Positions 2,070 to 63,510 of a stretch of 64,000 nucleotides of DNA are shown piece by piece. Under the pieces are notes generated by a model that was given only the letters and a program-made list of their open reading frames with translations, was not told the origin of the DNA and did no database searches. Numbering within the stretch: the stretch's first letter is position 1; every line of letters begins with the position of its first letter. The position numbers and the translations under genes are program-made. Source of the DNA: Tillus elongatus (Eukaryota > Arthropoda > Insecta > Coleoptera > Cleridae); the NCBI GenBank assembly GCA_964006375.1, contig OZ023265.1:149598269-149662268 (forward strand), in the 5' to 3' direction.

Positions 2070-3355
2070 ATGAACAATCTTATAACTGTTGCTGTTTTAG
2101 CGGCTTTTGTTACCTTCGTAAGCGCTGTGCCCGCTTATAACATAATACAAGATACTGAAGGTCAACAGTACTATATGATTCCAGTCACCAGACAAAGAAG
2201 GTAATTAGTATTTTCACAAAATAAATCCCTAACATATATTTTTTAATGAGAATTTATGCTAATTATTGTTCTTTGTGGCACAGACAAGCTAAGACCGAAG
2301 TGGTTGTCGCCGGTCCTGATTTAACTGCAGGTGTGAAACATGGAGGCATAATCGCTGAAAACGAAAATCATCAACTGGGAGGGCAGGTTTCACTAACGAA
2401 ACAATTTATCCCTGATTCTCCTATAACAGCAACTGGAGAACTAGATTATTTGCACAAAGATTCAGGTTAGTCTATCTTTTAATTTCTAATTTTTTAAAAG
2501 GAGGTTTCTCTTATATTGAAAATTTATTTATACAAAAAAAGAAGAATTTCCAGTATTTTATAGTCATTTGGACTACCAGAAGAGCATTACACTTTAAAGA
2601 TATAATAATGTAGCGATGAAATCAAAACAATCCTTGTGTGGGCATTTTCGCTGCTAATCAGCATATTCACCAGCTTTTATAACTGGTGATAGACACTAAG
2701 TGAAGATTGGAACCTGTGATGAGCACTAATAAGTACACTTGGATAACCCAAATCACCACAATATATTTTAAAAGACGTGACGATCGTTTCACTAACCAAG
2801 TTTGCGTCATCAGAGGATGAAACATTCTGAGAAAATGTTTCATCCTCTGATGACGCTAACTTGGTTAGTGAAACGATCGTCAAACATACTGAGAGAATGT
2901 TTCATCCACTGATGACGCTAACTTGGTTAGTGAAACGACCGTCAGGTCTTTTAAAATGTGTTTTGGTGATTTGGGTTCTCCGAGTGTACTTATTGGTGAT
3001 AGACACTTATTTCTAAACGCTAATAGTATTTGAAGCTCAAAAACTTACAGGTTAAAAAAACTATAATACATTTTGTAAAGCAGGTAAAATTTTATTTGAA
3101 ATGGTTTAGATTTAGATTTTATATAAAATTTAGTTAAAAATTTTGTTTGCTTTAACAGGTTCTGGATTGGGTGCTACAGTAAGGCATGCTCAACATGGAA
3201 GCACTGATGTCGGGATAGAAGGCAAATATAATCTGTATCAAAACGGGAATTTGGGTGTTGATTTAACCGGAGGCTGGCAGAGGAGTTATGGAGGACCTAG
3301 AGGAACCAGTGACCCATCATGGAACACTATGCTGCGAGGACATTACGATTTCTAA
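2070..3355 (+). CDS. Attacin-like glycine-rich antimicrobial peptide, copy 1
   Basis: A secreted immune effector, probably acting on the bacterial envelope after release into haemolymph. Exons are 2070-2200, 2284-2465 and 3159-3355, all with GT/AG borders, joining to 169 codons ending in TAA. Residues 1-19 form a signal peptide (MNNLITVAV...VSA), residues 20-44 a propeptide ending in RQRR, a furin-type site. The 125-residue mature chain begins at Gln45. It has no cysteine, is rich in Gly, and consists of two similar-sized glycine-rich parts split exactly by intron 2. It ends GGWQRSYGG...LRGHYDF. Canonical attacins are longer (about 185 mature residues), so this is a short attacin/diptericin-type member. 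Intron 2 (693 bp) is double the usual size because it holds a foldback insertion. The signal peptide differs from most copies (NNLITVAVLAAFVTF). Confidence 0.82.
2685..3007. mobile_element. Foldback element in intron 2 of attacin copy 1
   Basis: Inserted sequence missing from intron 2 of the other copies. Terminal inverted repeats begin AATAAGTACACTTGGATAACC (about 2729) and end in the complement near 2993. The 13-mer GGTGATAGACACT stands at 2685-2697 and again at 2995-3007, with a diverged relative (GTGATGAGCACT) just left of the repeat, consistent with a duplicated target. Inside are three copies of a block CTGATGACG-CTAAC-TTG-GTTAG-TGAAAC, one on the minus strand and two on the plus strand 62 bp apart (2847 and 2909). 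A partial relative lies at 20,915-21,010. It has no coding capacity. Confidence 0.7.
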
Positions 3356-4060
3356 TTATACAATAAGATTCTAATATTGATTGTGTTAATTTCTATTAGG
3401 ATAATAGCCTATTTATTATTTGTTTGAACATTTTAATATATGTTTTTTATGTAAATCATATGGTTTTAATTGGTCTCCATTTTTTTTAAACCCTGTATGA
3501 ATAAACGAAAAGTGCTAAAGAATAATACCGTTTAAAAGAGCATAACCTGACGATCATTTTGCCAACTTTGTTGAATTCACTAAAAAATAAATTAAACTGC
3601 CTGTCTAGCTGTGTTCTAATAAATATTTGAAGAAACACCAGATTATAGAAAATTTCAATTAAAATCACCCAGTTTCTCACCAGGTGGAAAGCAAATATAG
3701 ACTGTATCTACAATATTTGGAACAAAATCATTTTTATACTAGCGTTGTTCTCAGGCTTACAGTTTTCTCAGAAAAGTTACCAATCTAGAACTTATTGCCA
3801 GCTGATCTTCCTGCCAGACTACAATTCTACCATTTCGTCAGAAACAAACCAAATGCAGATTCACTGTTTGTGAATAAAATACTATTTACAGATGAAGCTA
3901 CCTTAAATCGCCGGGGTGTATTCAACTGCAGAAACCAAGATATCTGGGAGATTGAGAAGCCTCATGTAGCAATAGTAGGTTATTTTCAACAAATTTCAAC
4001 ATTAATGTTTTACAATATGGGTCTAGTGATCTCATTGGTGATTTACCCTTAGATTTAAGC
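3355..4060 (+). pseudogene. 3' flank of attacin copy 1 with mariner-like transposase fragment
   Basis: After the stop codon lies a short 3' UTR and then a remnant of a Tc1/mariner-superfamily transposase. Around 3800-3990 the + strand reads RLQFYHFVRNKPNADSLFVN, then KILFTDEATLNRRGVF, then a WEIEKPH-like piece, the region around the second catalytic Asp (FTDEA). The same fragment occurs downstream of copies 2 (about 12,300-12,560, minus strand) and 3 (about 20,090-20,480), so it was part of the ancestral duplicated unit. No terminal repeats or complete DDE set are seen. Confidence 0.65.
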
Positions 4061-12560: not shown

Positions 12561-13328
12561 TGGTAACTTTTCTGAGAAAACCGTAAGCCTGAGAACGACT
12601 CTAAAAAATGAGTTTGTTCCAAAGTTTGTGGGTACAGTCTATATTTGCTTTCCACCTGGTGACAAACTGGGTGATTTTAATCGAAATGTTCTATAATCTG
12701 GTATTTTTTCAAATATTCTTTAGAACACGGCTAGGCAGGCAGTTTTTTTTTTTAATAATAATTATAATAACCTTTACCTTTATTGCTTAAAATCATACAA
12801 CATGTTTATTCAATAAGTCTAAGACTTGTGGTGAATATTAACATAATTTTATATACATAGTTGCATCCAAAACTGCTTGGCAACACTCCAAATTCAACAA
12901 CCTTCAAATCTTGACATTCCAAAAAATTTATTTTCTCTTCCATTTCGTTCTTCTAATGTTTCACCTGATACCTCCCTTTACCATTAATACTAATCACTCC
13001 ATAATACTTTTTCAACTGCAAATCTTTCTCAACTGCCCATATTTTTGCCCAAATTGTAAATTTTGTACCAGACCAGAAATGACATTTTAATTTATTATTT
13101 AGTGAATTCAACAAAGTTGGCAAAATGATCATCAGGTTATGCTCTTTTAAAAGATATTAATCTTTACCACTTTTGTTTACTCATACAGGATTTTTAAAAA
13201 ATCGACACCAAATAAAACCATATAATTAACATAAAAAACATATATTTAAATATTCAACAAACAAATGATAAATAGGCTTTTATCCTAATAGAAATTACCA
13301 CAATCAATATTAGAATCTTATTGTATAA

Positions 13329-14239
13329 TTAGAAATCGTAATGTCCTCGCAGCATAGTGTTCCATGATGGATCGCTGGTCCCTCTAGGTCCTCCATAACT
13401 CCTCTGCCATCCTCCGGTTAAATCAACACCCAAATTCCCGTTTTGATACAGATTATATTTGCCTTCTATCCCCACATCAGTGCTTCCATGTTGGGCATGC
13501 CTTACTGTAGCACCCAATCCAGAACCTGTTAAAGCAAAAAGTCTGCTTTGCAAAATGTATTATCATTTTTTTAAATTGTAGTTTTTTTAATTTCAAATAA
13601 TATTAGCTTCTCAAAAATAAGTGTCTACCACCAGTTGTTAAATCTGGTTAATATGCTGGCTTACAGCGGAAATCTCCAAAAATGATTGTTCTGATTCCAT
13701 TGGTACATTATTGTGTTTTTAAAGTTATAATGGTAGTTCGAATATATAGAAAATACTGCTAATTCTTTTTGTTTTTTTATCAATGAATTTGTAATATAAG
13801 AGTAACTTCCTTAAAGATATTAAAAACTAAATGATAGACTAACCTGAATCTTTGTGCAAATAATCTAGTTCTCCAGTTGCTGTTATAGGAGAATCAGGAA
13901 TAAATTGTTTCGTTAGTGAAACCTGCCCTCCCAGTTGATGATTTTCGTTTTCAGCTATTATGCCTCCATGTTTCACACCAGCAGTTAAATCAGGACCCGC
14001 GACAACTACTTCGGTCTTAGCTTGCCTGTATCACAAATAATAATTAGCATAAATATTTATTTAAAAGAATACAATGTTACATATTTATTTTGTGAAAATA
14101 TTAATTACCTTCTTTGTCTGGTGACTGGAATCATATAGTACTGTTGACCTTCAGTATCTTGTATTATGTTATAAGTTGGCACAGCGCTTACAAATGCAAC
14201 AAAAGCAGCAAAAACAGCAAAACTTATAAGAGTGTTCAT
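13329..14239 (-). CDS. Attacin-like glycine-rich antimicrobial peptide, copy 2
   Basis: The only minus-strand member. Exons, in order of transcription, are 14239-14109, 14025-13844 and 13525-13329; introns are 83 and 318 bp. The predicted protein is 169 residues with signal peptide MNTLISFAVF...VSA, Thr at residue 22 where most copies have Ala, the RQRR processing site and a mature chain of the copy 1/3 type (AQHGSTDVGIEG, GGPRGTSD). The first base of exon 2 is G rather than A, which still gives Arg44 (AGG). The shortest intron 2 of the cluster marks it as a copy without insertions. TATA-like GTATAAACC lies at about 14,300 and the conserved GGGGGATTTATTATATC at 14,355-14,371, upstream on this strand. 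It is head to head with copy 3. Confidence 0.82.
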
Positions 14240-18715: not shown

Positions 18716-19671
18716 ATGAACACTCTCATAAGTTTTGCTGTTTTTGCTGCTTTTGTTGCATTTGTAAGTGCTGTGCCAGCTTATAACATAATACAAGATA
18801 CTGAAGGTCAACAGTACTATATGATTCCAGTCACCAGACAAAGAAGGTAATTAATATTTTCACAAAATAAATATGTAACATTGTATTCTAATAAAGAAAG
18901 ATTTATGCTAATTATTATTTGTGGTACAGACAAGCTAAGACTGAAGTGGTTGTCGCCGGTCCTGATTTAACTGCTGGTGTGAAACATGGAGGCATAATCG
19001 CTGAAAACGAAAATCATCAACTGGGAGGGCAGGTTTCACTAACGAAACAATTTATTCCTGATTCTCCTATAACAGCAACTGGAGAACTAGATTATTTGCA
19101 CAAAGATTCAGGTTAGTCTATCATTTAGTTTTTAATTTCTTTAAGGATGTTACTCTTATATTACAAATTCATTTATAAAAAAATGCAGTATTTTCTATAT
19201 ATTCGAACTACCATTAACTTTAAAAGCACAATAATGTACCAATGAAATCAAAACATTCCTTCTGTGGACATTTCCGCAGTAAGCCAGCATATTAATCAGA
19301 TTTTACAACTGGTGGTAGACACTTAGTTTAGAAAAGCTAATATTATTTGAAGTTAAAAAAAATACCAGTTAAAAAAATGAGAATACATTTTGCAAAGAAG
19401 GCAAAAATTTATTATAATTGGTTTAGGTTTAATTTAATATAAAATTCAGTGTCAATATTTTTTTGCTATAACAGGTTCTGGATTGGGTGCTACAGTAAGA
19501 CATGCTCAACATGGAAGCACTGATGTTGGGATAGAAGGCAAATATAACCTGTATCAAAACGGGAATTTGGGTGTTGATATAACCGGAGGATGGCAGAGGA
19601 GTTATGGAGGACCTAGAGGAACAAGTGACCCATCATGGAACACTATGCTGCGAGGACATTACGATTTCTAA
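18716..19671 (+). CDS. Attacin-like glycine-rich antimicrobial peptide, copy 3
   Basis: Exons 18,716-18,846, 18,930-19,111 and 19,475-19,671, with introns of 83 and 363 bp; 169 residues. The signal peptide is the commonest form (MNTLISFAVFAAFVAFVSA), followed by the RQRR site and a mature chain of the copy 1/2 group. The only change noted against copy 1 in exon 3 is Ile for Leu in GVDITGG. Promoter, gene and 3' flank mirror copy 2, so the two arose by one inverted duplication. Its 3' flank carries the mariner fragment with a new (TA)n expansion. Confidence 0.82.
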
Positions 19672-20089
19672 TTATACAATAAGGTTTTAATATTGATTGC
19701 GTTAGTTTCAGCCTATTTATTATTTGTTTGTTGAACATTTTAATATATGTTTTTTATGTCAACCATGTGGTTTTAATTGGTCTCCATTTAAAAAAAATCC
19801 TATATAAGTAAACGAAAAGTGGTAAAAAATAATATCGTTTAAAAGAGCATAACCTGACGATCATTTTGCCAACTTTGTTGAATTAATTAAAGAATAAATT
19901 AAACTGTCTCCCTCACTGTGTTCTAATAAATATTTGAAAAAAGACCAGATTATAGAAAATTTCGATTAAAGTCACCCAGTTTGTCACCATCTTAAAAGCA
20001 AATATAGACTGTATCCACAAAGTTTGGAAAAAATCATTTTTATATTAGCGTTGTTTTCAGGCTTACGGTTTTCTCAGAAAAGTTACCAA

Positions 20090-20840: not shown

Positions 20841-21010
20841 TGAATACTTAAGTAATTAATTATTAAGTTTCAAAACATTGGTTGATAGTCATAACTTATA
20901 ATACTTTTCTATAAGTACCCTTGGAGAACCCAACCACAACACATCTTTTCAAAGACCTTATGATGTTTCACTAGCAAAGTTAGCGTCATCAGAGGATGAA
21001 AAATTCCAAA
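20841..21010. repeat. Partial foldback element
   Basis: From about 20,915, AAGTACCCTTGGAGAACCC and then GATGTTTCACTAGCAAAGTTAGCGTCATCAG (given in two pieces here: GTTTCACTAGC and AAAGTTAGCGTCATCAG) match one half of the foldback element in copy 1 intron 2. Confidence 0.55.
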
Positions 21011-26268: not shown

Positions 26269-27220
26269 ATGAACACCCTCATAAGTTTTGCTGTTTTTGC
26301 TGCTTTTGTTGCATTCGTAAGCGCTGTGCCAGCTTATAACATAATACAAGATACTGAAGGTCAACAGTACTACATGATTCCAGTCACCAGACAAAGAAGG
26401 TAATTAATATTTTCACAAAATAAATATGTTACATTGTATTTTTCTTAAATAAAGATTTATGCTAATTATTGTTCTTTGTGGTACAGACAAGCTAAGACTG
26501 AAGTGGTTGTCGCGGGTCCTGATTTAACTGCAGGTGTGAAACATGGAGGCATAATCGCTGAAAACGAAAATCATCAACTGGGAGGGCAGGTTTCATTAAC
26601 GAAACAATTTATTCCTGATTCTCCTATAACAGCAACTGGAGAACTAGATTATTTGCACAAAGATTCAGGTAAGTCTATCATTTAGTTTCTAATCTTTTTA
26701 AGGACGTTACTCTTATATTGCAAATTCAGTCATAAAAATTTTCAATATTTTCTATCTATTTATACTTTAAAAACACAATAATGTACCAATGAAATCAAAC
26801 AATCCTCCCGTGGACCTTTTCGCTGTTAACTAGCATATTCACCAGCTTGTACAACTGGTGGTAGACACTTGTTTTTAAAGAGCTAATATTATTTAAAGCT
26901 CAAAAAACTTACAAGTTAAAAAAATATAACATATTTTGTAAATCAGGCAAAGATTTATTGGAAATGGTTTACGTTTAGATTTTATATAAAATGTATTTAA
27001 TTTTTTTTTTTTTGCTTTAACAGGTTCTGGATTAGGTGCTACAGTTAGGCATTATCAACATGGAAGCACTGATGTTGGGGTAGAAGGCAAATACAATCTA
27101 TATCAAAACGGGAATTTGGGTGTTGATTTAACCGGAGGGTGGCAGAGAAGTTATGGAGGACCTAGAGGGACCAGCGACCCATCATGGAACACTATGCTGC
27201 GAGGGCATTACGATTTTTAG
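26269..27220 (+). CDS. Attacin-like glycine-rich antimicrobial peptide, copy 4
   Basis: Exons 26,269-26,399, 26,487-26,668 and 27,024-27,220, with introns of 87 and 355 bp; 169 residues ending in TAG. Intron 2 alone in the cluster has a consensus GTAAGT donor; the others use GTTAG. Signal peptide as in copy 3. The second half carries the group 4-7 signature RHYQHGSTDVGVEG (Tyr and Val where copies 1-3 have Ala and Ile) and GGPRGTSD. The start codon follows a shortened leader (ACTCATTACAAAATG) compared with the other copies. Confidence 0.82.
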
Positions 27221-27499
27221 TTATAAACTAACGTTTTAAACTTGATTTTGTTAGTTTTATTAGGAAAAAGCTTATTTATTATTTGTTTGTTGAATATTTT
27301 AATATAGGTTTCTTATGTTAATTATATGGTTTTTCATTGGCTTCCTTTTCTTAGACACCCCGTATGAATGAAAGAAGAAGTAGAAACTAATACTACTGTT
27401 TAAAAGAGCATAACATGACACTCGTATTGCCAACTTTGTTCAATTCATTAGATAATAAATTTAGCTGCCTAGCTGTGGTCTAATAAATCTTTTTAAAAA

Positions 27500-27653: not shown

Positions 27654-27732
<79 letters not shown>

Positions 27733-27740
27733 TATGTAAA
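27500..27740 (+). repeat. TA repeat linked to attacin copy 4
   Basis: Variant left flank (GAGGAGATCTCGACTTTTGA, then CATAAACATGGTTAG) plus (TA)n about 280 bp beyond the stop codon. It has the same distance and variant bases as after copies 5, 6 and 7, so it predates those duplications. Confidence 0.8.
27657..27730. repeat. (TA)n tract 7
   Basis: About 74 bp of pure TA. Confidence 0.97.
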
Positions 27741-28099
27741 TTTAAACACAAAAAAGTTATAGGTATTTAAAGAAAAAATGTGGGGTTTTCCTCAAAACGC
27801 CAAAGTCGCGATTTGAAACGTCAAAATTGGCAACATTTAGGCAAAAAACCTCAAGCCAAATTTTTTTTCGCTTAAACGTCGTAAAAATTACAAAACGTAT
27901 AGAAAACATGGTATGGAAACAATTTTTTTTGTCTGGATGTCTGTTTGTAATCACGAGAACTTTAGAAATAATTGATATAACGTGTTCAAATTTGGTATAC
28001 AGGTAGTACTCAACAAACGAGCGGTTCGGATTGTTTTTGGGTAAAATCGCTTTAGCGCATATGAAATGAATGGAGGTGATTTGGTGAGAATTGACATTT

Positions 28100-31421: not shown

Positions 31422-32368
31422 ATGAACACTCTCATAACTTTTGCTGTTTTTGCTGCTTTTGTTGCATTCGTAAGCGCTGTGCCGGATTACAACATAATGC
31501 AAGATACTGAAGGTCAACAGTACTACATGATTCCAGTCACCAGACAAAGAAGGTAATTAATATTTTCGATAAAATAAATCTGTTACATTGTATTTTTCTT
31601 AAATAAAGACTTGTACTAATTATTGTTCTTTGTGGTACAGACAAGCTAAGACTGAAGTGGTTGTCGCCGGTCCTGATTTAACTGCTGGTGTGAAACATGG
31701 AGGAATAATCGCTGAAAACGAAAATCATCAACTGGGAGGGCAGGTTTCACTAACGAAACAATTTATTCCTGATTCTCCTATAACAGCAACTGGAGAACTA
31801 GGCTATTTACACAAAGATTCAGGTTAGTCTATCATTTAATTTGTAATTTTTTTAAGGACGTTACTCTTATATTGCAAATTCAGTCATAAAAATGTGCAAT
31901 ATTTTCTATCTATTTACACTTTAAAAACACAATAATGTACCAATGAAATCAAACAATCTTCCCGTGGACATTTTCGCTGTTAACCAGCATATTCACCAGC
32001 TTTTGCAACTGGTGGTAGACACTTATTTTCGAAAGGCTAATATTATTTAAAGCTTAAAAAACTTACAAGTTAAAAAAATATAACATATTTTGTAAATCAG
32101 GCAAAGATTTATTGGAAATGGTTTACGTTTAGATTTTATATAAAATGTATTTAATTTTTTTGCTTTAACAGGTTCTGGATTAGGTGCTACAGTTAGGCAT
32201 TATCAACATGGAAGCACTGATGTTGGGGTAGAAGGCAAATACAATCTGTATCAAAACGGGAATTTGGGTGTTGATTTAACCGGAGGGTGGCAGAGGAGTT
32301 ATGGAGGACCCCAAGGGACTAGTGACCCATCATGGAACACTATGCTGCGAGGGCATTACGATTTTTAG
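31422..32368 (+). CDS. Attacin-like glycine-rich antimicrobial peptide, copy 5
   Basis: Exons 31,422-31,552, 31,641-31,822 and 32,172-32,368; introns 88 and 349 bp; 169 residues. Replacements not shared with copy 4: the propeptide reads VPDYNIMQ, exon 2 ends GELGYLHKDSG (Gly for Asp, shared with copy 7) and exon 3 has GGPQGTSD (Gln for Arg). The RQRR processing site and both Trp residues are kept. It belongs to the YQHGSTDVGVEG group. Confidence 0.82.
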
Positions 32369-32639
32369 TTATAAACTAACGTTTTAAACTTGATTGTGTT
32401 AGTTTTATTAGGAAAAAGCTTATTTATTATTTGTTTGTTGAATATTTTAATATAGGTTTCTTATGTTAATTATATGGTTTTTTATTGGCTTCCTTTTCTT
32501 AGACACACCGTATGAATGAAAGAAGAAGTAGAAACTAATACTACTGTTTAAAAGAGCATAACATGACACTCGTATTGCCAACTTTGTTCAATTCATTAGA
32601 TAATAAATTTAGCTGCCTAGCTGTGGTTTAATAAATCTT

Positions 32640-34815: not shown

Positions 34816-35189
34816 TTAGGTATGTAAATTTAAACACAAGAAAGTTATAGGTATTTAAAGAAAAAAATGTGGGGTTTTCCTCAAAACGCCAAAGTCGCGA
34901 TTTGAAACGTCAAAATTGGCAACATTTAGGCAAAGAACCTGAAGCCAATTTTTTTTTCGCTTAAACGTCGTAAAAATTACAAAACGTATAGAAAACATGA
35001 TATGGAAACAATTTTTTTTTGTCTGTGTCTGTTTGTAATCACGAGAACTTTAGAAATAATTGATATAACGTGTTCAAATTTGGTATACAGGTAGTACTCA
35101 ACAAACGAGCAGTTCAGATTGTTTTTGGGTAAAATCGCTTTAGCGCATATGAAATGAATGGGGGTGATTTGGTGAGAATTGACATTTTT

Positions 35190-38409: not shown

Positions 38410-39712
38410 ATGAACAATCTCGTAACTTTTGCTGTTTTTGCTGCTTTTGTCGCATTCGTAAGCGCTGTGCCAGCTTATAACATAATACAAGGTACTGAAG
38501 GTCAACAGTACTACATGATTCCAGTCACCAGACAAAGAAGGTAATTAATATTTTCACAAAATAAATATGTTACATTGTATTTTTCTTAAATAAAGATTTA
38601 TGCTAATTATTGTTCTTTGTGGTACAGACAAGCTAAGACTGAAGTGGTTGTCGCGGGTCCTGATTTAACTGCAGGTGTGAAACATGGAGGCATAATCGCT
38701 GAAAACGAAAATCATGAACTGGGAGGGCAGGTTTCATTAACGAAACAATTTATTCCTGATTCTCCTATAACAGCAACTGGAGAACTAGATTATTTACACA
38801 AAGATTCAGGTTAGTCTATCATTTAATTTGTAATCTTTTTAAGGACGTTACTCTTATATTGCCAATTCAGTCATAAAAATTTGCAATATTTTCTATCTAT
38901 TTACACTTTAAAAACAAAATAATGTAGTAATAGTAATAGTTTATTGTGACAATAATAGTACAAAGCGCCTTACAAATAAGTATTTTACTTGTGCTTGCAA
39001 ACAGCGCAATTTAATCAGTTATCATCCAAACGTTGATATTCCAAATTTCTTGACAGTGACACTTTTCTAATTTGGCAGACTTCAAATTTTGATCAATAGA
39101 CAATAATTGATTTTAAAACATTCCTTCTTTCTGTCTTCAACTAAAACCAATCCATTTCCACTACTCTCTATTACACCGTTACTCTTTCTAAAACATAAAT
39201 TTTCTATTTTATCCAAATATTGAGTTAAAATTGTATGTTTTTTCCCAGACAAAATTGACACGTCTAGCTACTATTTATGTACCAATGAAATCAAACAATC
39301 CTCCCGTGGACATTTTTGCTGTTAACCAGCATATTCATCAGCTTTTACAACTGGTGGTAGACACTTGTTTTTGAAAAGCTAATATTATTTAAAGCTCAAA
39401 AAACTTACAAGTTAAAAAAATATAACACATTTTGTAAATCAGGCAAAGATTTATTGGAAATGGTTTAGGTTTAAATTACATTTAAAATGTATTTAAATAT
39501 TTTTTGCTTTAACAGGTTCTGGATTAGGTGCTACAGTTAGGCATTATCAACATGGAAGCACTGATGTTGGGGTAGAAGGCAAATATAATCTATATCAAAA
39601 CGGTAATTTAGGTGTTGATTTAACCGGAGGGTGGCAGAGGAGTTATGGAGGACCTGGAGGGACCAGTGACCCATCATGGAACACTATGCTGCGAGGGCAT
39701 TACGATTTTTAG
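38410..39712 (+). CDS. Attacin-like glycine-rich antimicrobial peptide, copy 6
   Basis: Exons 38,410-38,540, 38,628-38,809 and 39,516-39,712; 169 residues. Intron 2 is 706 bp because of a 350-bp retroelement tail. Distinct residues: signal MNNLVTFAVF, propeptide IIQGTEG (Gly for Asp), exon 2 NENHELGGQ (Glu for Gln) and exon 3 GGPGGTSD. RQRR is kept and no stop or splice defect is seen. Confidence 0.82.
38927..39276 (-). mobile_element. 3' tail of a non-LTR retrotransposon in intron 2 of copy 6
   Basis: 350 bp absent from the other copies, flanked by ATGTA at 38,922-38,926 and 39,277-39,281. Read on the minus strand it ends ...GTCACAATAAACTATTACTA with a short TTACTA repeat, the usual look of a 5'-truncated retroposed tail. 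Confidence 0.65.
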
Positions 39713-39989
39713 TTATAAACTAACGTTTTAAACTTGATTGTGTTAGTTTTATTAGGAAAAAGCTTATTTATTATTTGTTTGTTGAACATTTTAATATATG
39801 TTTTTTATGTTAATTATATGGTTTTTCATTGGCTTCCTTTTCTTAGACACCCCGTATGAATGAAAGAAGAAGTAGAAAATAATACTACTGTTTAAAAGAG
39901 TATAATATGACACTCGTATTGCCAACTTTGTTGAGTTCATTAGATAATAAATTAAACTGCCTAGCTGTGGTCTAATAAATATTTTTTTA

Positions 39990-40146
39990 AAAGTTTTATG
40001 GTAATGAATTTTCATAAAAACATTTTACTGAAAAAAATATTCAGTAAGAGGAGCTCCCGACTTTTGTATTTTATAAAAATATCTTCAAATAAGCGCGAAC
40101 TAGGCCCCCTAAAACCCATACCCAGGGTTAGTTTCAATTTTTATAT

Positions 40147-40237
<91 letters not shown>

Positions 40238-40240
40238 CAA
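39990..40240 (+). repeat. TA repeat linked to attacin copy 6
   Basis: Same position and flank as after copies 4, 5 and 7. Confidence 0.78.
40151..40233. repeat. (TA)n tract 12
   Basis: About 83 bp, ending AGTACCAAA as after copy 7. Confidence 0.97.
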
Positions 40241-40543
40241 ATGTATGTAAGTTTAAAGACAAAAAAGTTATAGGTATTTAAAGAAAAAAATGTGGGGTTT
40301 TCCTCAAAACGCCAAAGTCGCGATTTGAAACGTCAAAATTGGCAACATTTAGGCAAAGAACCTGAAGCCAAAATTTTTTTTTCGCTTAAACGTCGAAAAA
40401 AATACAAAACGTATAGAAAACATGATATGGGAGCAATTTTTTTTGTCACTATGTCTGTTTGTAGTCGCAACACGTTCACCACTCACTTAGTGTTTTAAGA
40501 CTGGCTATACTACAGCCGTGTTATTTTTGGTGCATTTTTGCTA

Positions 40544-40604
40544 CAATTAGTATGCCGTACTGAAGAGCTCTAATGAGAGCGAAACCGGTCTACGGTTCTA
40601 ATTG
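40544..40604 (+). ncRNA. Type I hammerhead ribozyme, unit 1
   Basis: All conserved positions are present. Distal stem I CAATTAG (40,544-40,550) pairs with CTAATTG (40,598-40,604). An internal loop TATG / TT follows. Proximal stem I CCGTA (40,555-40,559) pairs with TACGG (40,591-40,595). The core CTGAAGA is at 40,560-40,566. Stem II GCTCT/AGAGC has the loop AATG (40,567-40,580). Then come GAA (40,581-40,583), stem III ACC/GGT without loop bases (40,584-40,589), and the cleavage triplet GTC ending at 40,590. Predicted cut is after C40590. The loop-less 3-bp stem III suggests action as a dimer or between neighbouring units. Confidence 0.85.
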
Positions 40605-40850
40605 TTGCGAGAATGCATCTAGTCTTACATACTTTGTCCCTATATTGGGGTAGAAATGGGCCAGGGCTAACAATTTTTTAAATTGTTAGTTAGTTGTATA
40701 CTGTCTCTATTTTTAACACTCTGTGTTATTTGGAGCGGGCGTGACAACATAGTACTTGGTTCCGAACTAGGTGGCGACACGTTCACCACTCACTTAGTGT
40801 TTTAAGACTGGCTATACTACAGCCGTGTTATTTTTTGTGCATTTTTGCTA

Positions 40851-40911
40851 CAATTAGTATGCCGTACTGAAGAGCTCTAATGAGAGCGAAACCGGTCTAC
40901 GGTTCTAATTG
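40851..40911 (+). ncRNA. Type I hammerhead ribozyme, unit 2
   Basis: Identical in all paired and core positions to the unit 1 motif: core CTGAAGA at 40,867-40,873, stem II at 40,874-40,887, predicted cut after C40897. The distance between the two cuts (307 nt) would be the monomer length. Confidence 0.85.
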
Positions 40912-41000
40912 TTGCGAGAATGCATCTAGTCTTACATACTTTGTCCCTATATTGGGGTAGAAATGGGCCAGGGCTAACAATTTTTTAAATTGTTAGTTAG

Positions 41001-41771
41001 TTGTATACTAGTGATGGGAAAAACAGTTATTTTCTGTTAACAGTTGAAGCCGTTAACGTTATTTAATAATAACCGCTGAAAATAACGGCTTCAGTTATTT
41101 TAACTGGATAGTCGATCGATAGTATCCTACATTCCCAAAGCTGTGAGCGATAGCGAGCACACTAGTATAAATACATTGTATTTTCACCCCGTTATTTCAC
41201 GTAGTGTATAAATCTCAAATTTTGTCGATATGAAAAGGAAACAAAGGGTTAAGAAATTATAATAAGCGTGTCGTAAATATTTTGCCACTCTGAAGTGAAA
41301 CTTTTATAAATCAGAAATAAGAATTTACTTAGATGTTTTAGGAATTATAAACTAGTCATTTCTCACAAATTTATTTTATCAGGGTCTTTACGTAAATGTC
41401 AATTCCACAGCAAGAATCAATAAATATCATTATTTATCACGCCTTGGGACGTTAGACGTTAGAACTTTTATTGCTACACAGGGAGTGATTCTAAAAACTC
41501 CATAACATAACGCAGCTAATAAAATTTCGGTAAAGAAACAGTATAAAAAATTGAGTTTGAGTTTTAAAAAAAATTGGAAGATATATAGTATTAATTGTTT
41601 ATTTACTTAATTTAATATTCGTTGTTTTAAAATTAGTTTCAAAAATTTCAAAGGGCTGTAACTTGGAGGAGAAGGGGTTTTAAGAAAAACTTAATAAGAA
41701 GACACCCCTTATTTTTCGCCAAAGAATCACCCTGTAAAATTTTTCGCATCAATTTGGAAGCACCCTGTATG

Positions 41772-41845
<74 letters not shown>

Positions 41846-42552
41846 TTTAATTTTTTATATTGAAATGTAGGTATATAGATATTAAAAAATGTTGTATCAT
41901 TATATTTTTTTAATCAATTTGATAACTATTATCAGACAAACGAAAATGACGTGTTAACTGTTTTCTTAGGTAATGTATACAAATTTAAATAAATAAGTAC
42001 TTTAATTTCACGTGAAATAACCCTATTTTGCGTTGTCTATAGTGAAAGTAATAACACGTTTTTACAGAAATTCATCTTTTTACCCAACATTTTTGATTAT
42101 TAAATATATGGCTTTACATACTAGTGGGAAACTCAACTGTTTCAAAAATAACAGCTTCTCAGTTTAACAGAATAACTCTGTGTAGTAGTGTCGGTATGCC
42201 GTATCCCCATCAACAACCGGTTAAAGTTAAAATTAAAATTAAACCGACCGTTTTATTGTACCGAAGATCGTACGTCCCTAAAGCTGTAAGCGAGAGCGAG
42301 CATTCCCAATCTCAAAGCTATTCATCCCGTTAAATGGTTAAATAACAGTTGCCGATGAAAACCGATGTTTATTCATCGAACCTAGTTGCAGTAGAATTGA
42401 AACAGACACGACTCCGAATTCTAGGTTAGTGTAAAAAGCGTTACTTTTTAAGCCGTTATTTTTAGAAATCGATAACCGGTGGTTACCGTTACGGCTCGGT
42501 AACAGCTTAAAAATAGCTGACAGTTAAATAACGACCCATCACTATTGTATAC
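41001..42552. mobile_element. Non-autonomous hAT-like element with 8-bp target duplication
   Basis: The 1,536-bp element occupies 41,009-42,544, between direct copies of TTGTATAC at 41,001-41,008 and 42,545-42,552. Its ends are inverted: TAGTGATGGG at the left and CCCATCACTA at the right, with subterminal CAGTTATTTTC / GTTAAATAACG similarity. An 8-bp duplication and a TA..ATGGG terminus fit the hAT superfamily. No transposase is encoded. The interior holds (TA)n tract 13. Removing it restores a perfect 307-bp repeat. Confidence 0.88.
41776..41842. repeat. (TA)n tract 13
   Basis: About 66 bp inside the hAT-like element. Confidence 0.97.
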
Positions 42553-42647
42553 TGTCTCTATTTTTAACACTCTGTGTTATTTGGAGCGGGCGTGACAACA
42601 TAGTACTTGGTTCCGAACTAGGTGGCGACACGTTCACCACTCACTTA

Positions 42648-42648
<1 letters not shown>

Positions 42649-42735
<87 letters not shown>
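42649..42735. repeat. (TA)n tract 14
   Basis: About 86 bp, directly abutting the partial third hammerhead repeat. Confidence 0.97.
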
Positions 42736-42740
<5 letters not shown>

Positions 42741-43718
42741 ATTTTCTTGGGTTAAACTTCGTCCAGAATTGATTAAAACTCGACGTTTTGATTCCTGTTT
42801 TGGAGCGATAATCAATAGGTTAAGGAAATATGAAAAGAAATGAACTCCAACGCCTCAATCTTCCTACTCCCCAAATCTCGCTGAAGGTCTCAGTTTCTGA
42901 AAAAGATCTCTCCGTTCCAGAGTTGACCACACTGAGATCTTAAATATTATATAAATCATCTGAAATTACCTGCGAGAAATAATTAGACTCAAAGTGAAAC
43001 TTACAACAAAGAGGTATGGTCATTTTGGGATGATCACTTTTTTAGCGGCCACAAAAAAAATAGCATTTTCCGACAGCACATCATGTAATAGTGCTAAAAA
43101 ACATTTTAAAATGCATTGGAGGGGAGATATACATGCCAATTCATTAAGTGACCGACATTCATATCTCGGTCACTTTGGTAACCAGAGCTTCGGAGAAAAC
43201 CGAGAGGTTTTTTCAGGTAGTTTTCTTATTCTTGCCACCAGATAATTTTTGTATATAACTTTTTGAAGGCTGTTATCTCAAAATATTTCTATTACAATGT
43301 TATTATCTTTTTTAGTTTCCTAAAACCCCTTATTTTGTTCTATATTTTCTGACTGACTTACGACTCTCTTACTTTAAAGAGTAAGTACATCAATGAAATT
43401 GTTTCGACAAGTACAACATAATGACATTCAAATTCAATATGACTCCAATTTGAAAAATCAAAGTTGATGATAATTCTAAAAAAAAAATGAAACGTTGGAC
43501 TTCGGTTCTGATAACATTTTCATATACAAAAGTCAACGCCAACTTTGCATAATTTAAAAAATGAAGAGGTTGTTACGAAAATAAGAGATTCTAAAAATGA
43601 GTTTTTTTCACCATATTCCTGGAAGCCTAAGAAGTAGGTCACATTTCTCGTCAATTCATTAGTTTCTTCACTAGATTGTGCAACTTCCTTTCATCTAATC
43701 GATTCCATATCTTTCATA
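42736..43718. repeat. Distal part of unit 6
   Basis: Starts ACATAATTTTCTTGGG and is closely similar to 46,553-47,570. No gene; contains the block ACATTTTAAAATGCATTGGA and CCGAGAGGTTTTTTCAGG. Confidence 0.55.
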
Positions 43719-44510: not shown

Positions 44511-45458
44511 ATGAACACTCTCGTAACCTTTGCTATTTTTTCTGCTTTTGTTGCATTTGTAAGCGCTGTGCCGGCTCATAACATAATACAAGATACTGAA
44601 GGTCAACAGTACTACATGATTCCAGTCACCAGACAAAGAAGGTAATTAGTATTTACACAAAATAAATATGTTACATTGTATTTTTCTTAAATAAAGATTT
44701 ACACTAATTATTGTTCCTTGTGGTACAGACAAGCTAAGACTGAAGTGGTTGTCGCCGGTCCTGATTTAACTGCAGGTGTGAAACATGGAGGCATAATCGC
44801 TGAAAACGAAAATCATCAACTGGGAGGGCAGGTTTCATTAACGAAACAATTTAGTCCTGATTCTCCTATAACAGCAACTGGAGAACTAGGCTATTTACAC
44901 AAAGATTCAGGTTAGTCTATCATTAAATTTGTAATCTTTTTAAGGACGTTACTCTTATATTGCAAATTCAGTCATAAAAATTTGCAATATTTTCTATCTA
45001 TTTACACTTTAAAAACACAATAATGTACCAATGAAATCAAACAATCCTCCCGTGGACATTTTCGCTGTTAACCAGCATATTCACCAGCTTATACAACTGG
45101 TGGTAGACACTTATTTTTGAAAGGCTAATGTTATTTAAAGCTCAAAAAACTTACAAGTTAAAAAAATATAACACATTTTTTAAATCAGGCAAAGATTTAT
45201 TGGAAATGGTTTACGTTTAGATTTTATATAAAATGTATTTTATTATTTTTTGCTTTAACAGGTTCTGGATTAGGTGCTACAGTAAGGCATTATCAACATG
45301 GAAGCACTGATGTTGGGGTAGAAGGCAAATATAATCTGTACCAAAACGGGAATTTGGGTGTTGATTTAACCGGAGGGTGGCAGAGGAGTTATGGAGGACC
45401 TAGAGGAACAAGTGACCCATCATGGAACACTATGCTGCGAGGGCATTACGATTTTTAG
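44511..45458 (+). CDS. Attacin-like glycine-rich antimicrobial peptide, copy 7
   Basis: Exons 44,511-44,641, 44,729-44,910 and 45,262-45,458; introns 87 and 351 bp; 169 residues. It has the most distinct N-terminal part: signal MNTLVTFAIFSAF and propeptide VPAHNIIQ. Exon 2 has KQFSPDSP (Ser for Ile) and GELGYLHK; exon 3 is of the YQHGSTDVGVEG group with GGPRGTSD, and its ACAGTAAGG and CCTAGAGGAACA spellings match copies 1 and 3 rather than 4-6, which hints at gene conversion. Confidence 0.82.
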
Positions 45459-45734
45459 TTATAAACTAACGTTTTAAACTTGATCGTGTTAGTGTTATTA
45501 GGAAAAAGCTTATTTATTATTTGTTTGTTGAACATTTTAATATATGTTTTTATGCTAATTATATGGTTTTTCATTGGCTTCATTTTCTTAGACACCTCGT
45601 ATGAATGAAAGAAGATGTAGAAAATAATACTACTGGTTAAAAGAGCATAACATGTCACTCGTATTGCCAGCTTTGTTGAATTCATTAGATAATAAATTAA
45701 ACTGCCTAGCTATGGTCTAATAAATATTTTAAAA

Positions 45735-45965: not shown

Positions 45966-46390
45966 CAAAATTTAGGTATGTAAGTTTAACGACAAAAAAG
46001 TTATAGGTATTTAAAGAAAAAAATGTGGGGTTTTCCTCAAAACGCCAAAGTCGCGATTTGAAACGTCAAAATTGGCAACATTTAGGCAAAGAACCTGAAG
46101 CCAAAATATTTTTTTTCGCTTAAACGTCGAAAAAAATACAAAACGTATAGAAAACATGATATGGGAGCAATTTTGTTTGTCTGTCGGTCTGTATGTCTGT
46201 TTGTAGTCACGAGAACTTTAGAGATAATTGATATATCGTGTTCAAATTTGGTATACAGTTAGTACTCGGCAAACGAGCGGTTCGGATTGTTTTTGGGTAA
46301 AATCGCTTTAGCGCATATGAAATGAATGGGGGTCATTTGGTGAAAATTGAAATTTTTTAGTTAAAACTCGAGTAATATAACGTAGGGTTT

Positions 46391-46556
<166 letters not shown>

Positions 46557-46799
46557 ATTTTCTTGGGTTAAACTTCCTCCAGAATTGATTAAAACTCGAC
46601 GTTTTGATTCCTGTTTTGGAGCCATAATCAATAGGTTAAGGAAATATGAAAAGAAATAAACTCCAACACCTCAATCATCCTACTCCCCAAATCTCGATGA
46701 AGGTCTCAGTTTCTGAAAAAGATCTCTCCGTTCCAGATTTGACCACACTGATATGTTAGATATTATATTAATCATCTGAAATTACCTGCGAGAAATAAC

Positions 46800-48130
46800 C
46801 AGACTCAAAGTGAAACTTACAACAAAGAGGTATGGTCATTTTGGGATGATCACTTTTTTTAGCGGCCACAACAAAACTAGCATTTCCCGACAGCACATCA
46901 TGTAATAGTGCTAAAAAACATTTTAAAATGCATTGGAGGGAGATATACACGCCAATTCATTAGGTGGCCGACATTCATACCTCGGTAACTCTGGTAACCA
47001 GAGCTTCGGAGAAAACCGAGAGGTTTTTTCAGGTATAATTCAGGAAATATTTTTTAGTTTTCTTATTCTTGCCACCAGGTCATTTTAGATACAACTTTTT
47101 GAAGGCTCTTATCTCAAAATGTTTCTATTACAATGTTATGATCTTTTTTACTTTCCTAAAACCCCTTATTTTGTTCTATATTTTCTGACTGACTTACGAC
47201 TCTCTTATTTTAAAGGGTAAGTACATTAATGAAATTGTTTCGACAAGTACACCATAATGACATTCAAATTCAATATGACTCCAATTTGAAAAATCAAAGT
47301 TGATGATAATTCTAAAAAAAAATAAAACGTTGGACCTCGGTTCTGATAACATTTTCATATACTAGTGTTTTACAAAAGTCAACACCAACTTTGTATAATT
47401 TAAAAACTGAAGAGGTTGTTACGAAAATAAGAGATTCTAAAAATACGTTTTTTTCAGCATATTCCTGGAAGCCTAAGAAGTAGTTCACATTTCTCGTCAA
47501 TAAATTAGTTTCTTCACTAGATTGTGCAACTTCCTTTCCTCTAATCGATTCCATATCTTGCATATCATAGAAATTCTATTGTTTAGTCTCTTTGAAGTAG
47601 AAGGCATTGAATACAGATGTTCTTGTGTTGTGATGTTTCCCAACCTGGAACCTCTTTGAACTTGTTTTGCCAAACAAATAAACTGATTTTTTAAATGGGA
47701 ATGAATTTCAATGTCATTATGTTGAACTTAACGAAACAATTTCATTGATGTACCAGATGATAGAGCTGAAGTAAAAGATTACCGTCTAACATCAACTTTG
47801 ATTAAATTTAACCCTTTTATCGCCCTTTAATGTAAGAGGATGGTACCTCAGACAAAAAATATTCAACATGATTATGGGTTTTAGCGAAAGTAAAAAGAAA
47901 ATAATATTGTAATCGGAATATTTTGAGATAACAGCCTTCAAACAGTGTCATCGTATAACCCGCCGTCTGGTGGCAAGAATGAGAAAATAAAAAAGACTTC
48001 CTAAACTTTACCTGAAAAAAGCTTTCGAATGGGTTTTCCGAAGCTCTAGTTGCCATAATTACTGAGATATTAATGTCGCTCACCTATTGAATCACCCTAT
48101 ATATCTCGGTTCCGATGCACTTTTAAAATC
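46800..48130. repeat. Inverted repeat of about 220 bp flanking an 800-bp loop
   Basis: The block at about 46,900-47,130 (GCCGACATTCATACCTCGGT, AGAGCTTCGGAGAAAACC, TTTTTTCAGGTA, TTATCTCAAAATGTTTC) recurs diverged and reversed at about 47,920-48,110. No ORF of note lies between. It may be a foldback-type element or two oppositely inserted repeats. Confidence 0.55.
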
Positions 48131-53842: not shown

Positions 53843-54420
53843 ACAGATAACGCAAAAAATAATCTTGATCAAATTTGGTGAGTACCTTCCTTTTGCGAGT
53901 GGATTGAATAAGTTCGTTAGCTAGGAAAATCGGACCAGGTTTTCCCAGAAAATGTTGTGTTTTATTTCTAAAAAAAATTATATCTCCAAAAATAACAAAG
54001 TAAGGGCAACCAAATTTATTACGCGTGTATTATAAAGAGTGAACTCTGTACCAAAATTTAGGTCTCTAGCTTTAAAGACAAAGAAGTTATGGGCAGTTAA
54101 AGAAACAAATCTTGGAGTTTTCTTCAAAACGTCAAACTCGTAATTTGAAACGTCAAAATTGGCAATATTTAGGCAAAGAACGTGAAACAAATACGGATTG
54201 TGAAAAGAAAATATTGCAAAAAGAGTGTTCTGCGAACCCTTAAGTTTCAGATTCAACCGTCACTGCCCTTCATTTTACTAAAATATATACAGAAAATTCA
54301 TTTCAAATAGACCCTTTCTCTGATGCTTTGGCTGTCGGTTTAGTTAAGTTGATGCTTTCGCTGTAGGTTTAGTGAAGTTTATGGTTTAACAGTCTACAAT
54401 TTTTAGTTAATTTTCGTAGA
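53690..54420 (+). repeat. TA-element with (TA)n tract 20 and long right flank
   Basis: (TA)n at 53,759-53,839, then CCGACAGATAACGC, the standard right flank, and a continuation (CAAAACGTCAAACTCGTAAT, AGACCCTTTCTCTGATGCTT) that is also seen at 29,930-30,010, 36,900-36,990 and reversed at 51,330-51,480. Confidence 0.7.
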
Positions 54421-55384: not shown

Positions 55385-56690
<1,306 letters not shown>

Positions 56691-57120
56691 AAAAACTTGT
56701 TATGATCACATAACATAACAGAATATGATTGAAAAAAAGTAAAATTATATCATGATAATTGGTCAGTTGGGGATAAAAATTTAAAATGTTGTATACCTAC
56801 TGTGAGATTATAAATTATTTTAAAAAGAAAAATGTTACAATGCTTGGTCCATACCACTCGCGAATTACGCAAAGCACATTGCGAAATCGCAGCGAAACCT
56901 ATCCCTATTGGTTTATTTTAAATAATATCGTAATATTCTTTAAAATGGAGCAATAATAATCAATTTCGCTATTTGCATTTCGCGACTGTATGAACCTAGC
57001 TTAAGGAGACTGGTGCAGTTATAGACAAGGCTACGATAATACGTATGATGGTTCAATTTCAGTTACTGACATGACAACTATTTGATTCACTTCGCTAACA
57101 ATTATGATAACGGATTTTCT
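56691..57120. other. Unassigned AT-rich sequence
   Basis: No repeat or gene recognised. Confidence 0.3.
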
Positions 57121-57126
57121 TTTGTA

Positions 57127-57349
57127 GTGCTTCTTTTGAGAGCTGGTTTTTTACTAATACAGCTTGGAACAATACCAACGCAGGATGTGTATGAAATTAT
57201 TATACAGAATTTGGCAGATGTCTCCGTCAGTATAATATCGTTTTGTACAATTGGTTATACCATAGCTTATGGAGAGGACGTGAATGGTATGGTAGGAAAA
57301 CCACATTTCTCGCATTTCTGGGATATGGACCCTGACAAGGCGGTATTTG
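57127..57349 (+). CDS. Single ammonium-transporter-like exon (partial gene or relic)
   Basis: An exon-like open stretch preceded by a pyrimidine-rich acceptor (TTTTCTTTTGTAG) and closed by a donor (GTAAGATT at 57,350). It translates to LLLRAGFLLIQLGTIPTQDV, then NLADVSVSIISFCTIGYTIA, then YGEDVNGMVG and WDMDPDKAVFG. The pattern, two membrane segments with an AGF...N..DV..S...F...GY..AYG framework, resembles the N-terminal part of Amt/Rh-type ammonium transporters. No partner exon was found within the following 6 kb and the upstream side is unclear. It could be an exon of a gene with very large introns or a captured relic. Confidence 0.5.
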
Positions 57350-57659
57350 GTAAGATTATTTTGAAATAAAAACCCTTCTAAGAGGTTTATTTCTCTGGCA
57401 CTAAGAAACTGTTACTAGTTGTCTGCAAATATTTACCAACGACCCCTTTATTTTAGGGAATAAATTCACAAACGGTGGGGAGGTGACTGCTTTCGACGAA
57501 GTAAAGCCCGTAGAAAAAATATTTGGGGTTTATTTTAGTTTGTATATATTCATGCATATACATGGTGAGGCATTAGTAAGACAAAGTCTTACATATACGT
57601 TATTATGCAAGATAGTTTACAATACTGATTCTTTAAGATTACATAAGAGCATTTTACAT

Positions 57660-59111: not shown

Positions 59112-59230
59112 GAGAACAGCTATAGCACATTGGAAATAACGAATCTCGTGCGATCAGCGAAGTTAAGCAACCTCGGGCGTGGTCAGTTCTTGGATGGGTG
59201 ACCACCTGGGAATATCGCGTACTGTTACCT
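59112..59230 (+). rRNA. 5S rRNA-like sequence (solitary, diverged)
   Basis: About 119 bp aligning end to end with animal 5S rRNA. Landmarks are TCTCGTGCGATCAGCGAAG, AGTTAAGCAACCTCGGGCG (box A), GGATGGGTGACCACCTGGGA (box C region) and CGCGTACTGTTACC. The 5' end GAGAACAG can still pair with the 3' CTGTTACCTC with a small bulge. A run of nine T follows (from 59,231), the usual RNA polymerase III stop. Several substitutions in the first 30 bases distinguish it from a standard gene. It may be a dispersed pseudogene, a variant gene, or the head of a 5S-derived SINE; no SINE body is visible upstream or downstream. Confidence 0.7.
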
Positions 59231-62974: not shown

Positions 62975-63510
62975 CTAATCTTATAAACTTCACAAATAAG
63001 ACCAAACCTCGAATCCTGCTCCCACATCTGGGGTGCTGCTGCCGCTTCTACACTCGCTATCCTGGACTCCATTCAGAAGAGAGCTATACGTCTAATCGGT
63101 GACCCTACCCTTACCCAAAGGCTGCCATCCCTTGCCCACCGACGTGCTGTTGGTGACCTCTCTCTCTCTTTTTTTTATAGATATCTGCACGGGCACTGCT
63201 CAGAGGAGCTTTCTTCCATACTTCCTCCACCTGCTGCCCCCAACAGATCTACCAGGGGAACAGAGCGAATGCATCCTTTTACTGTCCAGGTCACCAGACA
63301 TAGAACATCTTGTTATGCCCGCTCTTTTGTCCCGAGGACTTCCAAGTTGTGGAATTTCTTGCCGGCACATGTTTTTCCTTCTCCCCCGAACCTCCAAACC
63401 TTCAAGTCCAGAATTAACAAGTTGCGTCTTTCCTCGTTGTTGACACTCACGGTACGATAGTATTTAGGCTGTAAGCCCTCGTGGTGTGTTGTTGAAATAA
63501 AAAAAATAAA
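62975..63510 (+). mobile_element. Jockey/CR1-like retrotransposon, copy C (3' end)
   Basis: 5'-truncated insertion carrying the last RT C-terminal part (ILDSIQKRAIRLIGDPTL-like) in broken frames, then FVPRTSKLWNFLPAHVFPSP and TFKSRINKLRLSS, and the 3' end CACGGTACGATAGTATTTAG followed by a short A-rich AAATAAAAAAAATAAAAAAA tail. A (CT)5 run at about 63,160 marks the site that expanded in copy B. Confidence 0.85.

Follow-up and report, generated by a model that had tools for sequence, protein, structure and literature searches.

The window, a 64-kb stretch of the genome of the clerid beetle Tillus elongatus, contains a partly tandem cluster of antimicrobial genes. Attacins are insect peptides, and an attacin C-terminal exon region is present at seven places in the window, the query included (Table 1); the Attacin_C domain is recognized by Pfam for the copy in the open reading frame at 45162. 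The initial annotation, which had placed the locus within an immune-gene cluster, is thus borne out on this point. Other parts of the window contain a single 5S rRNA match (59112-59230; 63.9 bits at the Rfam curated cut-offs), a reading frame that matches an ammonium transporter domain (57070-57366), and a very long (CT)n run (55897-56367; 236 copies of the 2-base unit) within a reading frame whose start resembles that of the frame 62987-63460.

In addition to these genes, the window contains a 307-bp repeat with a GC content of 40% that is represented by two head-to-tail units and an excess of 25 nt. When a transposon inserted into the second unit is set aside together with one copy of its target duplication, the array proper (40467-41008 and 42553-42649) amounts to 639 bp, that is, 2 x 307 + 25. 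The direct repeats 40464-40702 and 40771-41009, spaced by 307, share 99% identity over 239 nt aligned uninterrupted; when units 1 and 2 are placed in register over their 307 positions and the interruption is disregarded, they differ at three positions, one in the body of the unit and two among the six leftmost. No other copy of the unit exists in the window outside the array, as judged by the lack of a shared 14-mer.

The inserted transposon is flanked on both sides by the 8-bp target duplication TTGTATAC, and its terminal sequences and the length of this duplication are what we take to be those of hAT transposons. Because the element lacks stop-to-stop frames of at least 90 codons, we regard it as non-autonomous and, because it is nested in unit 2, as younger than the array; a second copy was not detected in the window (blastn, E 0.001). 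The interval 40466..42650, initially described as an array, does contain tandem 307-bp units, but most of it is not array, given that the transposon interrupts unit 2; the initial annotation had noted neither this nested element nor how the integration site is built.

Table 1. Coordinates of the features at the array and of its paralogous sequences in the window
Feature	Position	Strand	Basis and remarks
Attacin C-terminal exon region matches	3100-3400; 13284-13538 (-); 19419-19709; 26963-27264; 32117-32412; 39459-39756; 45205-45502		
Unit 1 of the 307-bp repeat	40467..40770	+	repeat comparison; first 3 register positions absent at the left edge; left junction from paralogues
Hammerhead ribozyme 1 (type I), expected to cleave 3' of C40590	40544..40604	+	motif search; Rfam RF02275, 27.8 bits
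Unit 2, part before the hAT-like insertion	40771..41008	+	41001-41008 is the left duplication copy (8 bp)
Hammerhead ribozyme 2 (type I), expected to cleave 3' of C40897	40851..40911	+	motif search; Rfam RF02275, 31.0 bits
hAT-like DNA transposon inside unit 2, 1536 bp, ends TAGTGATGGG...CCCATCACTA	41009..42544	.	unit comparison; not part of the retrozyme
Unit 2, remainder beyond the hAT-like insertion	42545..42621	+	100% match to 40694-40770; 42545-42552 is the second duplication copy
Third unit, first 28 positions	42622..42649	+	ends at the (TA)n run
Target (TA)n tract adjoining the array on the right	42649..42740	.	repeat scan; paralogue B has its own (AT)n
185-bp stretch of uninserted paralogue B, missing at the array site	46209..46393	.	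paralogue comparison

The insertion site and its paralogues

Because the attacin cluster is repeated in part, both flanks of the array have paralogues in the window. For the left flank, three of these match it up to base 40466 (B, 45976-46208; C, 34820-35040; D, 27732-27952), and all three, the only matches that reach the left junction, continue past it without the array. Four further partial matches, near 54071, 51477, 17061 and 21646, stop well short of the junction and are uninformative in this respect. Hence the array is present at one of the four paralogous places compared. The right junction is placed by paralogue B alone: the flank from 42649 matches 46465-47564 at 92%. Past the left junction, paralogue B continues with a stretch of 185 bp, followed by its own (AT)n (46394-46556) and then by the shared right flank; paralogues C and D also carry the 185-bp stretch and then diverge from B. 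Because this stretch separates the junction from the right flank in paralogue B, the array appears to replace approximately 185 bp. The loss would be slightly larger had a portion of the (AT)n disappeared as well, and at this single locus it may or may not date to the insertion.

The array is bounded by GTAGTC on the left and by (TA)n on the right, and comparison with the paralogues at this one locus yielded no target duplication at its junctions. The 64 kb contain 25 pure (TA)n runs that are 30 bp or longer (two being parts of one tract), and since such runs are common in the window, the junction of the array with (TA)n is suggestive only. Several of the (TA)n runs have flanking sequence in common, as would be expected of a repeat family that terminates in (TA)n. 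Apart from the units themselves and (TA)n, there are no LTR-like direct repeats of at least 20 nt in 39500-43500.

Hammerhead motifs and RNA structure of the repeat unit

Both units contain the hammerhead core CTGAAGA, a stem II of the form GCTCT-AATG-AGAGC, GAA and ACCGGT, together with a stem I in which CAATTAG/CTAATTG and CCGTA/TACGG flank a TATG/TT internal loop. Thus, the two complete hammerheads that had been claimed for the repeats are present with every named part in its place, and the predicted cuts after 40,590 and 40,897 coincide with the positions of C17 in units 1 and 2, respectively. Hammerhead ribozymes follow known rules for their conserved positions, and it is the match at all of these positions that we consider decisive for the predicted hammerhead identity. 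A strict motif search (inner stem I of 5 bp, CTGANGA, stem II of at least 4 bp, GAA, non-G at position 17 and an A-U-closed stem III of at least 2 bp) over both strands of the window retrieved two places on the plus strand, namely these two hammerheads, and none on the minus strand; the same motif had no matches in 200 dinucleotide-shuffled windows (one strand each). Exact degenerate hammerhead patterns likewise had no matches in collections of viral and prokaryote contigs, which are unlikely places for insect elements.

The covariance-model check that the initial annotation had proposed gave a divided answer. In an Rfam scan of the whole window, both ribozymes were identified by E-value as RF02275 (Hammerhead_HH9), ribozyme 1 at 27.8 bits (E 0.0088) and ribozyme 2 at 31.0 bits (E 0.00083), and a scan of 2,301 bases in E-value mode returned the same family at 31.0 and 24.8 bits. 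These scores fall below the curated gathering cut-off of 52 bits for this family, and at curated cut-offs hammerhead matches are absent from the window. Moreover, some simple repeats and palindromes in the window match microRNA families at E-values no higher than these, so that the Rfam value alone is not decisive.

A second group of sequences with hammerhead-like words, an inverted and 62-bp tandem repeat with CTGATGA...GAAACG, occurs at 2724-2998 and 20911-21006; these words recall the minimal hammerheads of the Penelope type. We do not count the 62-bp repeat at 2820-2944 as a ribozyme because the base of its stem II is mispaired by eye and no Rfam hammerhead is found there to E 10 (2700-3050); its relative near 20992 was covered by the whole-window Rfam scan, to E 0.1 only.

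The stem III of the two hammerheads had been described as a loop-less ACC/GGT. Since a hairpin cannot close without a loop, ACCGGU in cis forms a stem III of one A-U pair capped by the palindromic CCGG tetraloop, and the loop-less form is possible only between two copies, whose ACCGGU sequences can pair with each other. The computed energies match such a dimer-type stem III in part. The best fold of the lone motif (z -3.3; 3 of 200 shuffles as good) is not the hammerhead but a structure that pairs the core with the cleavage region, at -20.6 versus -15.3 kcal/mol, the latter value excluding stem III, given that a loop of 0-2 nt cannot be scored. A double hammerhead, hand-built and drawn with stems I and III between copies, reaches -39.5 kcal/mol versus -30.6 kcal/mol for two single ones (twice the single value), but the most stable two-motif duplex goes below both, at -45.2 kcal/mol. 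Because the best folds, single and duplex, surpass the hammerhead forms in energy, efficient cutting is a prediction rather than a result. Contacts between the internal loop of stem I and loop II are predicted and plausible.

The structure of the unit extends beyond the hammerhead. The predicted 307-nt circle, taken from cut to cut on the plus strand, folds at -96.5 kcal/mol (z -5.2; none of 300 shuffles as good; z -5.5 in an earlier run of 100 shuffles), and the 246 nt outside the hammerhead, folded alone, give z -4.3. The complementary minus strand of the circle, at z -2.9, is slightly beyond the controls, seven 307-nt stretches of the window for which both strands, with 100 shuffles each, range from z -2.4 to +1.8. 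The ribozyme and the stronger predicted RNA structure are thus on one strand, the plus strand, as in published retrozymes. Around the circle the longest stop-to-stop frame comprises 44 codons on the plus strand and 40 on the minus strand, in agreement with the original reading of the repeat as encoding no protein.

Relationship to retrozymes and other hammerhead repeats

Taken together, these features make it very probable, in our assessment, that the locus is an animal-type (non-LTR) retrozyme. The criteria we used for this class comprise a type I hammerhead in each unit, tandem units of approximately 150-450 bp with GC below 50%, a non-coding and highly self-paired circle, the lack of an LTR, primer binding site and polypurine tract, an occupied and an empty site with a duplication that, when present, exceeds 4 bp, dispersed genomic copies, and self-cleavage with circular RNA in vivo. 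Here we found a complete hammerhead in each of the tandem units, with the length and GC content given above, and a circle that is non-coding and predicted to be self-paired. Metazoan non-LTR retrozymes are described in the same terms, as tandem non-coding repeats of ~150-450 bp with a type I hammerhead, GC below 50% and RNA predicted to be strongly self-paired (PMC7229834); at the present locus, no LTR-like direct repeat is seen in the 39500-43500 interval. Such retrozymes are described in coral, mussel and axolotl, and analogous repeats are stated to exist in insects among others (Cervera and de la Pena, 2020, PMC7229834). Hence the initial proposal of a retrozyme-like element, a non-coding, hammerhead-bearing tandem repeat, is largely right, but it is not new: the class is published and insects are named in it. 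What appears to be added here is the record of an insertion site and a newt-like stem III in an insect. Among the literature matches listed, which extend to articles rather than supplements, there are no beetle retrozymes.

The present element, which we liken to those of coral, mussel and axolotl by description and not by sequence, differs from them in its insect host, in having only two units and in the lack of a target duplication. The closest parallel in form is with the axolotl and newt hammerheads of the HHR_Amex1 type, in which the unit is ~330 bp and helix III consists of one base pair and a palindromic tetraloop (PMC7229834); the likeness is again one of form, not sequence, and the ~60,000 motifs per family in the axolotl genome (PMC7229834) stand against two copies at the insect locus. 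In the axolotl HHR_Amex1, the monomeric repeat showed 6% cleavage in an hour and dimeric constructs cut much better (PMC7229834); for the 307-bp unit, better cutting as a dimer is a prediction. According to a review, a stable helix III is typical of most type I hammerheads from invertebrates but is not formed by those of amphibians (PMC7761336); by this measure, the hammerhead of the 307-bp unit has the amphibian form, without a stable helix III, rather than the usual invertebrate one. Other reports relevant to this comparison include a hammerhead of Aedes aegypti for which a hypothetical dimer form was drawn and which was inactive in the assay of that paper (PMC3088659), and hammerhead repeats of tick, anemone, schistosome and newt, those of the anemone having target duplications of 15 bp (PMC4918200).

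Insects are also the source of the main alternative, namely that the array is a fragment of a hammerhead satellite brought or duplicated here by recombination rather than by reverse transcription. Insect satellites with active hammerheads are published, the pertinent example being pDo500 of Dolichopoda cave crickets, like the present repeat an insect tandem repeat with a hammerhead; both single and double hammerhead forms were proposed for it, and, as with the lone motif here, its hammerhead often failed to be the lowest-energy fold (113 sequences; PMC2837043). Furthermore, unequal exchange can also yield tandem units, and both the 185-bp gap and the absence of a target duplication are as compatible with repair or recombination as with reverse transcription. 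However, pDo500 has a ~500-bp unit that makes up ~5% of the genome in one species (PMC2837043), in contrast to the isolated short array found here, which consists of only two units and 25 nt at one of four paralogous places and shares no 14-mer with the rest of the 64 kb. We therefore consider a satellite origin unlikely.

It is considerably less probable still that the array is the pseudo-LTR remnant of an autonomous Penelope-like element rather than a stand-alone retrozyme. Penelope-like elements carry tandem minimal type I hammerheads without helix III nucleotides (PMC7761336; PMC6155905), for which cleavage as dimers was proposed (PMC7761336), and the stem III of the 307-bp unit is nearly as short. 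Nevertheless, its stem I is long, with an internal loop, and no Penelope-like protein is joined to the array: with the hAT-like element set aside, only the repeat lies between the junctions placed by the paralogues (the right one by B alone), and this interval lacks a reverse transcriptase/GIY-YIG body and any stop-to-stop frame of at least 90 codons. Finally, a chance hammerhead match within an unrelated tandem duplication, for which the non-hammerhead minimum-energy fold of the lone motif and the Rfam scores under the curated cut-off might speak, is exceedingly improbable in view of the lack of strict matches in 200 shuffled windows and the unusual structure of the remainder of the unit on the same strand.

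A tentative route of insertion

With respect to the origin of the retrozyme insertion, Cervera and de la Pena (2020; PMC7229834) conclude that tRNA ligase is the most likely agent of circle closure and propose a circular RNA as template and Penelope-like elements or LINEs as helpers; the integration route and the mobilizing enzyme of animal retrozymes are themselves inferred in that and related papers. Following this scheme, transcripts of the array would self-cleave 3' of C17, probably by way of double hammerheads whose shared 6-bp stem III is formed by the ACCGGU sequences of two copies, and the resulting 307-nt monomers would be closed into circles by a host RNA ligase. The reverse transcriptase of an autonomous element, such as a Penelope-like element or a LINE, would then have copied a circle for slightly more than two laps, starting at the (TA)n target, and the cDNA would have joined the upstream DNA with a loss of approximately 185 bp; afterwards, the hAT-like element would have jumped into unit 2.

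On the circle, the start and stop points of the array are no more than 25 nt apart, and the two units are nearly identical. The ends of the array lie away from the ribozyme cut site, which speaks against straightforward copying of a linear monomer. A length of two units and 25 nt would fit a reverse transcriptase that made slightly more than two circuits of a circle; 2 x 307 + 25 would likewise result from an uncut multimer, and template jumping from one linear monomer to the next, if the start was truncated, may also account for this length. On Penelope-like elements with TA microsatellites, the literature matches listed contained nothing usable. The specific proposal of target-primed reverse transcription, with slightly more than two rounds of copying on one 307-nt circle, priming at (TA)n and a 5' join that deleted approximately 185 bp, is accordingly tentative, and we regard it as possible rather than probable.

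Should the two-lap reading hold, the locus would represent a natural trace, in an insect, of the postulated circular template, and the newt-like form of stem III would occur in an insect retrozyme. The locus offers an insect example in which the flanks are available before and after insertion: the attacin paralogues provide both states of one insertion, so that the rolling-template model could be tested through junctions across the genome. Furthermore, the dimer-type stem III is now placed in an insect repeat.
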